DNA of 64,000 bases from Streptomyces sp. NBC_01571 (GTDB lineage Bacteria; Actinomycetota; Actinomycetes; Streptomycetales; Streptomycetaceae). The DNA lies in assembly GCF_026339875.1 (NCBI RefSeq), contig NZ_JAPEPZ010000001.1:2914001-2978000 (forward strand). Direction: 5' to 3'. Positions 51,448 through 56,794 of this stretch are shown here, piece by piece (the first letter of the stretch is position 1; each line of letters begins with the position of its first letter). Made by a program: the position numbers and the translations under genes. The notes beneath the pieces are model-generated. The model was not told the origin of the DNA. It made no database searches and worked only from the letters and a program-made list of their open reading frames with translations.

Positions 51448-52260
51448 CTACCCCTCCCCGTCGCCCTCCGAGGGCTCGCCCCCGGACCTGCGTGCCGCCT
51501 CGACGGTCTCGTCCTCGGACACCGGGCGCGCCGGCTGCCCGGCGGCCGACTCGGGTTTCGCGTGGAGGATGTCACGGGCCTGCTCGGCGGCGCGGGCGAT
51601 GCTCTCGGAGACGAAGTCGAGGAAGCGCGCGATGTTCTCCAGGCGGGTGGCGGCCGGGGTGCCCGGACCCAGGACGCGGACGCCTTGCCGGGTGGTCTCG
51701 ACGAGCTGTGCGGTGGACCGGGCGCTGGCCATCATCGACTGGTACCAGATGTCGTCGTCGACGATGTAGCGCTCGCGGCGGCGTTCGTCGCGCTCCCGGC
51801 GGACAAGGCCCTGGCTCTCGAGGAACGCGATCGCCTTGGAGACGGACGCCGGGCTGACCTGGAGGCGCTGGACGAGTTCGGACGCGGTGAGGCTGCCCGC
51901 GTCGCTGATGCAGAGGCAGGCCAGCACCCGGGACATCATCCTGGACATGCCCGACTGCATGATCACCGTGGTGAACGTCTCCTCGTACTCGCGCACCGCC
52001 TCGGCGTCCCGGCCGTGGGGCTGCGGGGGCGCTTCCGCCTCCTGGGGCGCGGTCTGCCTGCGGCGGTGGGCGCGGCGTTCGGTGGCGCGGTGGGCGAGGT
52101 CGGCGCGGTACGCGGCCGGACCGCCGTTGCGCATGACCTCGCGGGTGATGGTCGAGGTCGGACGGTCGAGACGTCTGGCGATCTCCGCGTAGGCGAGGCC
52201 GTCGGCCAGTCCCAGCGCGACCTGCTGACGTTCCTGCTGGGTGAGTCTGCCTCCCGGCAT
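51448..52260 (-). CDS. GbsR/MarR-type regulator with IS30-transposase-like N-terminal DNA-binding domain
   Basis: 270 residues from the ATG preceded by aaggaga. Residues 6-42 (LTQQERQQVALGLADGLAYA, then EIARRLDRPTSTITREV) plus RNGGPAAYRADLAHRATERR match, in order and spacing, the N-terminal HTH of IS30-family transposases as I know it. After a disordered linker (about 70-88), residues 90-240 form a MarR/GbsR-type winged helix (ASELVQRLQVSPASVSKAIAFLESQGLVRRERDERRRERYIV) with a long dimerisation helix. The protein thus has two DNA-binding domains. It is divergent from a DUF4097 gene; the 246-bp spacer has five GCAACG motifs. Characterised GbsR proteins control osmoprotectant genes; ectABCD lies 1.3 kb away, which may be coincidence. 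Confidence 0.82.
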   Translation of the reverse strand: MPGGRLTQQERQQVALGLADGLAYAEIARRLDRPTSTITREVMRNGGPAAYRADLAHRATERRAHRRRQTAPQEAEAPPQPHGRDAEAVREYEETFTTVIMQSGMSRMMSRVLACLCISDAGSLTASELVQRLQVSPASVSKAIAFLESQGLVRRERDERRRERYIVDDDIWYQSMMASARSTAQLVETTRQGVRVLGPGTPAATRLENIARFLDFVSESIARAAEQARDILHAKPESAAGQPARPVSEDETVEAARRSGGEPSEGDGEG

Positions 52261-52315
52261 CGCGGTCTCCTTCATCGTCCGTGGTGCCTCCAGCATAGCG
52301 TTCACCCCCAATTCA

Positions 52316-52445
52316 TTGCAACGCATCAAGCGATCCCTGTTGCATTAGCTTTAAACTCATTGCAACGAAATCTCACCATCTACCTGCAACGTTCGCTCTT
52401 CTACGCAACGAACCTGTTGTCAGACCATTGAACGCAACGTAGCGT
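52316..52445. promoter_or_regulatory. GCAACG repeat array and promoter between GbsR-type regulator and DUF4097 gene
   Basis: GCAACG occurs at 52318, 52362, 52386, 52405 and 52434, usually with TT or T before it, plus an inverted gttgca near 52339. Spacings are 44, 24, 19 and 29 bp. TTGTCA (52417-52422) and TAGCGT (52440-52445), 17 bp apart, form a good promoter for the DUF4097 gene, and the last GCAACG lies in its spacer. The array is a strong candidate operator for the two-HTH regulator. Confidence 0.6.
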
Positions 52446-52506
52446 TTCCAACAACAGAAACGACGACGGGCGACAGGAGTCCGCGTCGCAGAAGAAGGAG
52501 AGCACG

Positions 52507-53178
52507 ATGCAGAAGTACGACACCCCCGCCCCCGTCTCGGCCGTCCTCGACATCCCCGCGGGCCGCGTCCGGTTCGTCGCCGCCGACCGGACCGACACCA
52601 CGGTCGAGATCCTGCCCGCGGACGCCTCCAAGAGCCGCGACGTCGAGGCGGCGGAGCAGACCGAGGTCACCTACGGCGACGGCGTCCTGCGGATACGGAC
52701 CGCGGCGGCGAGGCACCGGGTCCTCGGCGCCTCCGGAGCCGTCGAGGTGACGGTCCGGCTGCCCGCCGGCTCCCGCGTCGACGCGAAGGCGGCCGACGCC
52801 GGACTCCGGTGCGTCGGACGGCTCGGCGACGTCGCCTTCGAGGGCGGCCGGGCCACGGTCGAGCTCGACGAGGCCGAGAGCACCCGCCTCACCCTCCTCG
52901 CCGGCGACATCTCGGTCGGCCGCCTGGCCGGCCCCGCTGAGATGAGCACCCGGAAGGGCGACATCCACATCACCGAGGCCGTACGCGGCACGGTCGCGCT
53001 GCGCACCGAGCACGGCGAGATCTCGGTCGGCGCCGCCCACGGGGTCTCCGCGTCCCTGGACGCCGGCACCGGCTACGGCCGGATCCACAACGCGCTCAAG
53101 AACACCGGCGGCGCCGGAGCCGGCCTGAGCATCCGGGCGACCACCACCTACGGCGACATCAGCGCCCGCGCCCTGTGA
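52507..53178 (+). CDS. DUF4097 family beta-repeat protein
   Basis: 223 residues with no signal peptide or membrane segment. The sequence is a succession of short beta strands (VRFVAADRTDTTVEILPAD, VEVTVRLPAGSRVDAKAADAGLRCVG, GDISVGRLAGPAEMSTRKGDIHITEAVRGTVALRTEHGEISVG) typical of the DUF4097 right-handed beta-helix/adhesin-like fold. Streptomyces carries many of these, commonly next to MarR- or GbsR-type regulators. The start ATG has aggagagc six bases upstream. A hairpin terminator follows 17 bp after its stop. Function unknown. Confidence 0.82.
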   Translation: MQKYDTPAPVSAVLDIPAGRVRFVAADRTDTTVEILPADASKSRDVEAAEQTEVTYGDGVLRIRTAAARHRVLGASGAVEVTVRLPAGSRVDAKAADAGLRCVGRLGDVAFEGGRATVELDEAESTRLTLLAGDISVGRLAGPAEMSTRKGDIHITEAVRGTVALRTEHGEISVGAAHGVSASLDAGTGYGRIHNALKNTGGAGAGLSIRATTTYGDISARAL

Positions 53179-53589: not shown

Positions 53590-54147
53590 ATGACCGCCGC
53601 ACAGACAGACCTGCCAGCGGAATTCCTGGAAATGCCAGAGGGCCTTCGGATCGACCGTCCGGAGGTGGCCGACGGGGCCGCCCTCTGGCGTATCGCCAAG
53701 GACTCCGGAACCCTCGACCTGAACTCCTCGTACAGCTATCTGCTGTGGTGCCGTGACTTCGCCGGCACCTCGGTGGTCGCCCGCGACACGGCGGACCCCG
53801 ACGGGCTCCCCGTCGGTTTCGTCACCGGGTACGCCCGGCCCGAGCGCCCGGACACCCTGCTCGTCTGGCAGGTCGCCGTCGACGCCTCGCACCGCGGACG
53901 GGGACTGGCCGCGGCCCTGCTCGACGGGCTGACCGCGCGGGTCGCCCGGGAGCGGACGATCAGCGGGGTCGAGACCACCATCACTCCCGGCAACATCGCC
54001 TCCGAACGCCTCTTCACCTCGTACGCCGCCCGCCACGGCGCGAGTGTCGAGCGCGAGGTGCTGTTCGGGTCGGGGCACTTCCCGAACAGCCCGGACGGGC
54101 CCCACGACCCCGAAGTCCTGTACCGCATCGGTCCCCTCTCCCTCTGA
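53590..54147 (+). CDS. ectA: L-2,4-diaminobutyrate acetyltransferase EctA
   Basis: 185-residue GNAT enzyme that acetylates L-2,4-diaminobutyrate at the gamma-amino group, second step of ectoine synthesis. Diagnostic segments are GTLDLNSSYSYLLWCRDFAGTSVVAR near 40-65, VWQVAVDASHRGRGLAAALLDGL (acetyl-CoA P-loop) near 91-113, and TTITPGNIASERLF. It is the first of four ect genes, 29 bp before ectB. A TAAATT -10-like hexamer just upstream suggests a short or absent 5' leader. Confidence 0.95.
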   Translation: MTAAQTDLPAEFLEMPEGLRIDRPEVADGAALWRIAKDSGTLDLNSSYSYLLWCRDFAGTSVVARDTADPDGLPVGFVTGYARPERPDTLLVWQVAVDASHRGRGLAAALLDGLTARVARERTISGVETTITPGNIASERLFTSYAARHGASVEREVLFGSGHFPNSPDGPHDPEVLYRIGPLSL

Positions 54148-54176
54148 CCCCCCACGCACCGAGGAGCGATTCCGCC

Positions 54177-55448
54177 GTGACCATCACCCCGCCCGACCTG
54201 AGCGTCTTCGAGACCCTGGAGTCGGAGGTGCGCAGCTACTGCCGCAGCTGGCCCACCGTCTTCGACCGGGCGCAGGGCAGCCGGATGTACGACGAGGACG
54301 GCCACGCGTACCTCGACTTCTTCGCCGGCGCCGGTTCCCTCAACTACGGGCACAACAACCCGGTACTCAAACGCGCGCTGATCGACTACCTGGAACGCGA
54401 CGGCGTCACCCACGGTCTCGACATGTCGACGACCGCCAAACGCGCGTTCCTCGAGACCTTCCAGAACCTCGTGCTGCGACCGCGTGACCTGCCGTACAAG
54501 GTGATGTTCCCGGGCCCCACCGGCACCAACGCCGTGGAGTCCGCGCTGAAGCTGGCGCGGAAGGTGAAGGGGCGCGAGGCGATCGTGTCCTTCACCAACG
54601 CCTTCCACGGGATGTCGCTCGGGTCGCTCGCCGTCACCGGCAACGCCTTCAAGCGCGCCGGAGCCGGAGTGCCGCTCGTGCACGGCACCCCGATGCCGTT
54701 CGACAACTACTTCGACGGCCAGGTGCCGGACTTCCTCTGGTTCGAACGTCTGCTGGAGGACCAGGGGTCCGGCCTCAACCGGCCCGCCGCGGTCATCGTG
54801 GAGACCGTCCAGGGTGAGGGCGGCATCAACGTCGCCCGGCCCGAGTGGCTGCGCGCCCTCGCCGACCTGTGCCGCCGGCGGGACATGCTGCTGATCGTCG
54901 ACGACATCCAGATGGGCTGCGGGCGGACGGGAGCGTTCTTCTCCTTCGAGGAGGCGGGGATCGTGCCCGACATCGTGACCGTGTCCAAGTCCATCAGCGG
55001 CTACGGACTGCCCATGTCGCTGTGCCTGTTCAAGCCCGAGCTGGACGTCTGGGAGCCCGGCGAGCACAACGGCACCTTCCGCGGCAACAACCCCGCTTTC
55101 GTCACGGCGGCCGCGACCCTGGAGACGTACTGGTCGGACGGCTCCGCCATGGAGAAGCAGACCCGCACCCGCGGCGAGCAGATCGAGCAGGGCCTGATCT
55201 CCATCACCGAGGAGAACCTCGCCGACGTCCGGGAGTACCGGGGGCGCGGGCTCGTCTGGGGGCTGGAGTTCCACGAGAAGGAGCGCGCGGGGCGCGTCGC
55301 GCAGCGCGCCTTCGAACTCGGGCTGCTCATCGAGACCTCGGGGCCGGAGAGCGAGGTCGTGAAACTCCTCCCGGCGCTCACCATCACCCCCGACGAACTC
55401 GACGAAGGCCTGCGCACCCTCGCCCGCGCCGTGCGCGAGACCCTCTGA
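54177..55448 (+). CDS. ectB: Diaminobutyrate-2-oxoglutarate transaminase EctB
   Basis: 423-residue class III aminotransferase converting L-aspartate-4-semialdehyde and glutamate to L-2,4-diaminobutyrate. EctB features: [32 protein letters not shown] near the N-terminus, [27 protein letters not shown] aspartate in [18 protein letters not shown] and the Schiff-base Lys in [17 protein letters not shown] start with a gaggag site. Spacing to ectC is 52 bp. Confidence 0.96.
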
Positions 55449-55500
55449 GACCCACCCCGAACCCCGCACCCGAGCCACGAGAGAGAGGCATCGCAGCATC

Positions 55501-55899
55501 GTGATAGTCCGTTCGTTCAAGGACATCGAAGGCACCGACCGGCACGTGAAGTCGGCCTCGGGCACCTGGGAGAGCAAGCGCGTCGTCCTCGCCAAGGAGA
55601 AGGTCGGCTTCTCCGTGCACGAGACGATCCTGTACGCGGGCACGGAGACGTCGATGTGGTACGCGAACCACATCGAGGCCGTCGTGTGCGTCGAGGGCGA
55701 GGCCGAACTCACCGACGACGAGACCGGGTTCACGTACACGATCACACCCGGCACCACGTACCTCCTCGACGGACACGAGAGGCACACGATGCGGATCAAG
55801 GAGGACTTCCGCTGCATCTGTGTCTTCAACCCGCCCGTCACCGGGCGCGAGGACCACGACGAGAACGGCGTCTACCCGCTGCTCACCGAGGAGGTGTGA
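55501..55899 (+). CDS. ectC: Ectoine synthase EctC
   Basis: 132-residue cupin that cyclises N-gamma-acetyl-diaminobutyrate to ectoine. Conserved parts are [41 protein letters not shown], then [24 protein letters not shown] and [40 protein letters not shown]. The predicted iron ligands (Glu in HIEAV, Tyr in TTYLLDGHE, His in DGHERH) are present. GTG start; a gagagagag site precedes it. Seven bases separate its stop from ectD. Confidence 0.96.
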
Positions 55900-55906
55900 C
55901 CCGCCG

Positions 55907-56794
55907 ATGACCACCCTCACCGATCTCTACCCCAGCCGCGGCGCCACCGAGGTGTCCGTACCCCGCCAGGACCCGGTCGTGTGGAGCGCGCCGGGCGAAC
56001 CCGGCCCGATCACCCCCTCCGAACTGCACACGTACGAGCGTGACGGCTTCCTCCCCGTGGAGGAGCTCCTCAGCGAGGACGAGGTCGCCGTGTACCGGCA
56101 GGAGTTGGAGCGGATCGTCACCGATCCCGCGATCCGGGCGGACGAGCGCTCGATCGTCGAGCCGAAGTCGCTCGAGATCCGGTCCGTCTTCGAGGTGCAC
56201 CGGATCAGTGAGATCTTCGCCCGTCTCGTCCGCGACGAGCGCGTGGTCGGGCCGGCCCGGCAGATCCTCGGCTCGGACGTCTACGTCCACCAGTCGCGGA
56301 TCAACGTCAAGCCGGGTTTCGGGGCCAGCGGGTTCTACTGGCACTCGGACTTCGAGACCTGGCACGCCGAGGACGGGCTGCCGAACATGCGGACCGTGTC
56401 CGTGTCGATCGCGCTGACCGAGAACTACGACACCAACGGCGGCCTCATGATCATGCCGGGGTCGCACCGGACGTTCCTCGGCTGTGCGGGGTCCACCCCG
56501 GAGGACAACTACAAGCAGTCGCTGCAGATGCAGGACGCCGGCACGCCGTCCGACGAGGCGCTCACCGACTTCGCCACCCGGCACGGCATCAAGCTCTTCA
56601 CGGGCCGGGCCGGTTCGGCGACCTGGTTCGACTGCAACTGCATGCACGGCTCGGGCGACAACATCACCCCGTTCCCGCGCAGCAACGTCTTCATCGTGTT
56701 CAACAGCGTGGAGAACGCGGCGGTGGAACCCTTCGCGGCGCCGGTGCGCAGGCCCGACTTCATCGGGTCCCGCGACTTCACCCCGGTGCGCTGA
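55907..56794 (+). CDS. ectD: Ectoine hydroxylase EctD
   Basis: 295-residue Fe(II)/2-oxoglutarate dioxygenase that makes 5-hydroxyectoine. The facial triad is visible as H146 and D148 (FYWHSDFETWHAEDG) and H247 (CNCMHGSGDN). The EctD consensus FYWHSDFETWHAEDG-MP(x)MR is intact. ATG with a short spacing after ectC; last gene of the operon, followed by a strong terminator shared with the convergent aminotransferase gene. Confidence 0.96.
   Translation: MTTLTDLYPSRGATEVSVPRQDPVVWSAPGEPGPITPSELHTYERDGFLPVEELLSEDEVAVYRQELERIVTDPAIRADERSIVEPKSLEIRSVFEVHRISEIFARLVRDERVVGPARQILGSDVYVHQSRINVKPGFGASGFYWHSDFETWHAEDGLPNMRTVSVSIALTENYDTNGGLMIMPGSHRTFLGCAGSTPEDNYKQSLQMQDAGTPSDEALTDFATRHGIKLFTGRAGSATWFDCNCMHGSGDNITPFPRSNVFIVFNSVENAAVEPFAAPVRRPDFIGSRDFTPVR

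Follow-up and report, generated by a model that had tools for sequence, protein, structure and literature searches.

An IS30-type DNA-binding domain fused to a GbsR/MarR regulator in Streptomyces, and a conserved upstream array that shares the inner core of IS30-family ends

The window analysed here is a stretch of 64,000 nucleotides from Streptomyces sp. NBC_01571 (contig NZ_JAPEPZ010000001.1, positions 2,914,001 to 2,978,000), and our subject is one regulator gene within it, together with the divergent intergenic region that separates it from a DUF4097 (Toastrack) gene. The initial annotation had given the right coordinates for the open reading frame (ORF) and had omitted its strand, which is minus, with the ATG at 52260 and the stop at 51448. 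A GGAGA ribosome site lies 5' of this ATG and is conserved in a 75-sequence alignment; an alternative TTG start at 52329, giving a longer ORF, is also open and is the less likely of the two.

51448..52260, minus strand: regulator gene, 270 amino acids, with an IS30-type HTH_38 domain, a linker and a GbsR/MarR domain (profile search and AlphaFold2)
52036..52260, minus strand: codons 1-75, IS30-type DNA-binding domain, made up of HTH_38 (residues 5-45) and the YRA..A helix, which reaches about residue 68 (profile, alignment, AlphaFold2)
51565..52005, minus strand: codons 86-232, GbsR/MarR winged helix with long C-terminal helices (profile and model)
52261..52506, no strand: divergent intergenic region with the operator array, 246 bp, GC content 0.53 (flanking genes 0.73 and 0.75)
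52507..53178, plus strand: DUF4097 (Toastrack) gene, presumed target (E 4.4e-7, 30 bits, cut-off 22.9)

An IS30-type helix-turn-helix (HTH) near residues 6-65 and a MarR/GbsR winged helix behind it had both been proposed from the letters, and both were recovered by profile search. Residues 5-45 match HTH_38 (PF13936) at E 9.7e-14 and 51.3 bits, residues 103-160 match MarR_2 at E 2.5e-12 and 47.2 bits (curated Pfam cut-off 27 in each case), and the MarR family itself scores 41.6 bits against a cut-off of 24.6. HTH_38 is the top family for the N-terminus, followed by HTH_23 at 30.4 bits. Residues 6-66 are identical to an IS30 transposase of the same genome at 26 of 65 aligned positions (40%), and the similarity extends beyond the Pfam HTH_38 model into the NGG..YRA..A stretch. 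Structure prediction had been suggested as a check on the N-terminus, and AlphaFold2 of residues 1-75 yields helices 8-19, 24-31 and 35-44 and a long helix 48-68; the full-length model shows, after a weak linker, a winged helix followed by long C-terminal helices, and the C-terminal part tests as a GbsR-type fold. The N-terminus is strongly kept: across the window protein and 19 relatives, 58 of 75 columns show little or no variation. Its recognition helix, RPTSTITRE, belongs to the common class among IS30 elements. The DDE catalytic (rve) domain was absent among the best 25 of 31 Pfam and the best 25 of 33 NCBIfam families (E<=1), and the C-terminus is occupied by a MarR domain. NCBIfam transpos_IS30 reaches 15 bits (cut-off 80), over residues 36-71 only, and no PDB sequence named IS30 was matched. 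We confirmed, then, that the fusion of an IS30-type HTH and a MarR domain in one protein is real.

The intergenic region holds six GTTGC/GCAAC cores, where shuffled sequence predicts 0.70. The features within it are these, the two promoters having been picked by eye, while a promoter search of the region returned none at the threshold used:

52296..52321, minus strand: predicted 26-bp operator unit TTGC-N18-GCTA, overlapping the putative regulator promoter
52340..52365, minus strand: predicted 26-bp operator unit TTGC-N18-GCAA, family consensus inverted repeat CGTTGC..GCAACG
52318..52322, no strand: core 1, GCAAC
52339..52343, no strand: core 2, GTTGC
52362..52366, no strand: core 3, GCAAC
52386..52390, no strand: core 4, GCAAC
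52405..52409, no strand: core 5, GCAAC
52434..52438, no strand: core 6, GCAAC, within the block GAACGCAACGTAGCGTTTCC, beside the putative -10 of the DUF4097 gene
52292..52321, minus strand: putative regulator promoter, TTGCAA, 18 nt, TATGCT (8 of 12 matches)
52417..52445, plus strand: putative DUF4097 promoter, TTGTCA, 17 nt, TAGCGT

When 75 intergenic regions were aligned (the window included; L033, L043, L075, L094 and two loci shorter than 180 bp omitted), islands of conservation based on GTTGC/GCAAC spanned both putative promoters. Among close relatives the spacing from TTGC to GC(A/T)A is mostly 22 bp (1.66 per locus, with a shuffle mean of 0.012 per distance), and the two unit types have the consensus CGTTGCAATGaa.tG..aGTGAACGCTA and aTCgTTGCAAcgg.ct.gaa..tAAcGCAACg.

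The operator motif is TCGTTGCAAC, the inner core of the terminal repeats of IS30-family elements. Two IS30 copies of the window's own genome are among these elements, and the two ends of each read GGTCGTTGCAACAC and GGTCGTCGCAACAC; one operator sequence reads TTTCGTTGCAATG, and the inner ends of same-genus IS30-family elements are mostly GGTCGT(T/C)GCAACAC. We cut a 22-column position weight matrix (PWM), built from 16 same-genus IS30 end strings, into ten-column blocks and scored them at a threshold of 0.05 hits per shuffled locus, dropping three loci shorter than 200 bp. Blocks 1-6 gave 0.00-0.08 hits per close-relative locus, about the shuffled rate, and blocks 9-12 gave 0.65-1.78. Block 11, which is TCGTTGCAAC, matches the regions of 66 of the 77 close relatives, at 1.78 per locus, and of 7 of the 19 diverged ones, against 0/30 regions of MarR-only paralogues, 0/77 gene bodies and 1/74 downstream regions, and column-permuted versions scored as high in 0/500 trials in each of the two clades. 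The window itself has one match to block 8, one to block 10 and three to block 11.

ISApl1 is an element that we take to belong to the IS30 family. Its isolated HTH binds its own terminal repeats in an electrophoretic mobility shift assay (PMC10916398). A 17-kDa N-terminal portion of IS30 transposase binds the ends at their central, inner part and overlaps a promoter (PMC3299598). Among 46 tabulated IS30-family elements of the same genus and class (from 57 loci with a domain, after dropping three duplicates and eight without a clear repeat or good domain), 37 have GCAAC at both ends and one has GCAAG. The other eight end in GCGAC (one end GCGAT), GCGAA or GCACC and have unusual recognition helices (HH, FQ, NHTV; elements L195, L199, L203, L204; L124, L212, L222; L206), and GCAA is present in 38 of 38 remaining elements. 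A code relating recognition helix to end sequence is possible, although the grouping was set after the data were seen and the eight elements fall in few clades, so its p-value is not trustworthy.

Diverged fused relatives, only 39-56% identical, have GTTGC/GCAAC in 19 of 19 loci (2.79 per locus, shuffles 0.72); this set excludes two fused loci that lack the N-terminus, L152 and L153, with one and zero motif matches. Upstream regions of eight of these relatives, aligned separately, share a common layout with repeated GTTGC-type cores. The divergent genes of 12, read from translation without a database search, are P450-like (L141, L144, L148, L105), serine-hydrolase-like (L138, L150), an ABC ATPase (L139) or a membrane protein (L137, L106), with three unclear. 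Among MarR-only paralogues (34-44% identical) none of the 30 regions has the motif within 220 bp, where shuffled sequence gives 0.50 per locus, and one of 30 has it when the regions are extended to 330 bp. On sequence grounds, the comparison supports the view that the motif goes with the HTH_38 domain and not with the MarR domain. The MarR-only paralogues (L155-L184) have a strongly conserved upstream block of their own, TTTCAgAAATTTGTGAAGTTAAGGAA, different from the array, and their divergent ORF resembles an ABC ATPase by eye.

Of 80 related loci, 72 have a DUF4097 gene as the divergent neighbor, and four of the remaining eight have less than 220 bp upstream. Where DUF4097 is present with 2700 bp or more upstream (62 loci), a DrrA-like ATPase and a permease follow it in 32. 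The window's own DUF4097 gene stands alone, with ect-like (ectoine) genes next to it (53590-56794, plus strand). A link to ectoine was rejected, as EctA, EctC and EctD occur in 0/80 related loci and EctB in one (27% identity). Searching the window's own genome with the unit pattern TTGCAATG-N14-GCWA returned four matches, two in the window and two 44 bp apart (C1:481907 and C1:481951). The second pair lies upstream of another DUF4097 gene followed by ATPase and permease genes (L224:3282-5841, own genome C1:479281-481840), with the array intact and no regulator match adjoining; its ATPase scores 311.9 bits, where the TIGR01188 drrA cut-off is 312.45. Lone CGTTGCAATG matches with no full unit around them were also seen in this genome, at C1:885357 and C1:4715159.

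Across genomes, the 26-bp unit pattern occurs in 79 of 103 that bear the regulator and in 0 of 47 others, with 140 matches in all against 13 for a reversed control, the majority lying at the regulator's own promoter. We fetched 28 off-module units (those at G010, G109 twice, G041:C241:4196 and G146:C30 stand outside this set), and a DUF4097 gene, broken at L241 and L244, adjoins 18 of them; DUF4097 is lacking at eight, and a contig end truncates the remaining two (L232, L250). Conversely, of 12 DUF4097 copies that lie elsewhere than at the promoter of the regulator itself, 9 have at least three cores within 260 bp, the array being lacking at L255 (55% identity) and at L259 and L263 (partial matches). 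These 12 were hand-picked from a homology search, with L264 and L265 within a few kb of a regulator gene; with G146:C30 set aside as an earlier unit match, the array is present in 8 of 11 copies chosen regardless of the pattern. Where a genome lacks the regulator, its DUF4097 relatives are all distant (E 1.7e-38 at best), and G018, G027, G031 and G086, in which the regulator or a relative is present, gave no DUF4097 match at E<=1e-25.

The fusion itself, the conserved array, the IS30 core match, the co-occurrence with HTH_38 and the recurrence at unlinked DUF4097 operons, all computed here, lead us to propose, with a probability of about 0.7, that an IS30 end-binding domain joined a GbsR/MarR sensor, still has its specificity for transposon ends, and acts from operators resembling such ends to repress an envelope/efflux regulon. 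In this view a GbsR/MarR-type repressor acquired, probably by a single fusion, the domain with which an IS30-family transposase reads terminal repeats. A dimer would place two IS30-type heads on inverted CGTTGC/GCAACG half-sites about two helical turns apart (22 bp among close relatives), the MarR wings lying between the heads, at several operator sites across both divergent promoters; the predicted contact sites of residues 1-75 are the CGTTGCAA sites. Binding would repress, rather than activate, the regulator itself and the DUF4097 (DrrAB-like exporter) operon, both the local copy and unlinked copies in the same genome, and release would come from a ligand or envelope signal sensed through the MarR part. 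We infer the direct binding, the domain assignment, the dimer geometry, the repression and the inducer from these patterns. A MarR activator, SAV4189, is reported from Streptomyces (PMC6036246).

Several observations weigh against this proposal. A strict 13-column PWM matches at 27 of the 77 close loci and at 5 of the 19 diverged ones, which is weaker than block 11, and has zero matches in the window; column permutations reached the observed rates in 1/1000 (first 25 loci) and 5/1000 (the 19 loci); the operators therefore share a core and not an intact repeat, and we rejected the idea that they are full-length IS30 terminal repeats, as only the inner block matches well. The MarR-only regions are partly coding, owing to the divergent ORF, and coding controls are also motif-poor (gene bodies 0.05 per locus, shuffles 0.27), so the contrast between fused and MarR-only loci is weaker than the raw numbers. 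The spacing in diverged relatives peaks at 21 bp (0.47) and 23 bp (0.32). The coding overlap and the diverged spacing slightly lowered our confidence.

The strongest competing explanation is that recognition of the TTGC..GCAA repeats falls to the MarR winged helix, the IS30-like domain contributing only non-specific affinity or oligomerisation. In its favor, the regulator has a complete, conserved MarR domain, and inverted TTGC/GCAA repeats are plausible as a MarR-type operator; we nevertheless consider this unlikely, because the motif is the same as the IS30 end core and is missing from the 220-bp MarR-only regions, which have a different block, a point weakened by their partial coding content. 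It is more improbable still that the N-terminus is an ordinary homeodomain-like HTH whose likeness to IS30 and whose motif match are coincidental. Short HTH domains do look like many families and a six-base core is short, but HTH_38 leads HTH_23 by 51.3 to 30.4 bits, the identity spans 65 positions, and column-permuted IS30 PWMs equaled the match in 0/500. Least probable of all is that some other factor, for instance an IS30 transposase or a global regulator, occupies the array while the regulator described here acts elsewhere. A transposase could bind sites that resemble IS30 ends, yet the unit is absent from the 47 sampled genomes without the regulator, and IS30 presence is unassociated with it (15 of 66 regulator-bearing genomes, 11 of 35 others, p 0.35).

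We also considered that the regulator and resident IS30 elements share a recognition code and cross-talk, coupling transposon load to drug efflux. The regulator might bind the ends of IS30 copies, damping their promoter or transposition, and IS30 transposase or an N-terminal fragment of it might occupy the exporter operators. We hold this as a tentative and rather doubtful idea, as the IS30 counts just given tell against it. Silencing of IS30 by the regulator, judged from IS30 presence, found no support in them; mean copy numbers are 0.44 in regulator-bearing and 0.80 in other genomes, but a single genome has 13 copies.

The fusion architecture is not rare. A relative at E<=1e-40 is present in 103 of 150 same-genus genomes, the window's own counted and a few being fragments, partial or diverged, and, with fused and unfused proteins counted alike, 5754 of 8000 scored candidates are related at E<=1e-3. 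Named close relatives are mostly from Streptomyces; Kitasatospora, Micromonospora, Actinomadura and others are also among the 80 related loci, and a phylum-wide sample gave a match in 12 of 396 genomes and 2 of 236 genera. A phylogeny of the architecture had been suggested early on, and an unrooted 76-column tree, built from 29 regulator and 51 IS30 domains, unites the regulators in a single group with support 90/97, in a loosely resolved part that also contains 12 IS30 rows; the 51 IS30 domains are a set based on hidden Markov models, earlier regular-expression sets having kept 1 and then 12 distinct domains. A single fusion is the simplest reading. The initial annotation's idea of a domesticated transposase domain gains independent support as to origin, given the IS30 end core in the operators and a motif that tracks HTH_38, whereas the direction from transposase to regulator we infer because IS30 elements are widely spread and MarR-only paralogues exist. 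Its further suggestion of bivalent operator recognition is plausible, and the motif found goes with the IS30-like domain. In the open-access literature searched, neither the fusion nor IS30-end-like operators of a MarR regulator were found described. At L033 and L152 the DUF4097 and regulator genes abut, and the start of the regulator is unmatched (its first residues at L033, its first 84 at L152), as though a deletion had passed through the operator array, and short regulator remnants adjoin operator units at L236 (residues 1-57) and L242 (residues 1-28).

Should our proposal hold, a widespread transcription factor of bacteria would be using a borrowed transposase domain to read its operator, a transposon-end core, and this would have been kept in relatives only 39-56% identical. 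It would suggest one specificity code of recognition helix and end sequence for IS30 transposases and the regulator alike, predict operators for a large family currently filed just as 'GbsR/MarR', and point to a DUF4097-DrrAB export regulon.

The presumed target operons have known counterparts. Toastrack (DUF4097) envelope-stress and transport operons likewise place Toastrack beside transporters and DNA-binding regulators, those named including PadR, GntR, RHH and two-component types, with the term MarR absent from that text (PMC11237479). The lunaemycin self-resistance cassette lun25-27 has a permease, a DrrA-type ATPase and DUF4097 adjacent to one another, and the accessible part of its description names no regulator of this architecture (PMC9866976); the ATPase here falls just under the TIGR01188 cut-off. 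The regulator resembles the DNA-binding domain of IS30-family transposases in its HTH_38 domain, its YRA..A extension and the GCAAC end core of its predicted operators, and differs from the transposases in having no catalytic domain among the families listed above and sites arrayed in a promoter region; of the IS30 terminal repeat, its predicted operators share the inner core only. Relative to the 30 same-genus MarR-only paralogues, it has the GTTGC array that their 220-bp regions lack. The GbsR/MarR regulators 1ku9 (Mj223), 4nb5 and 5jbr of the PDB, which are presumably GbsR-like, match only about residues 82-233, and compared with them the regulator described here has an extra IS30-type domain in front.
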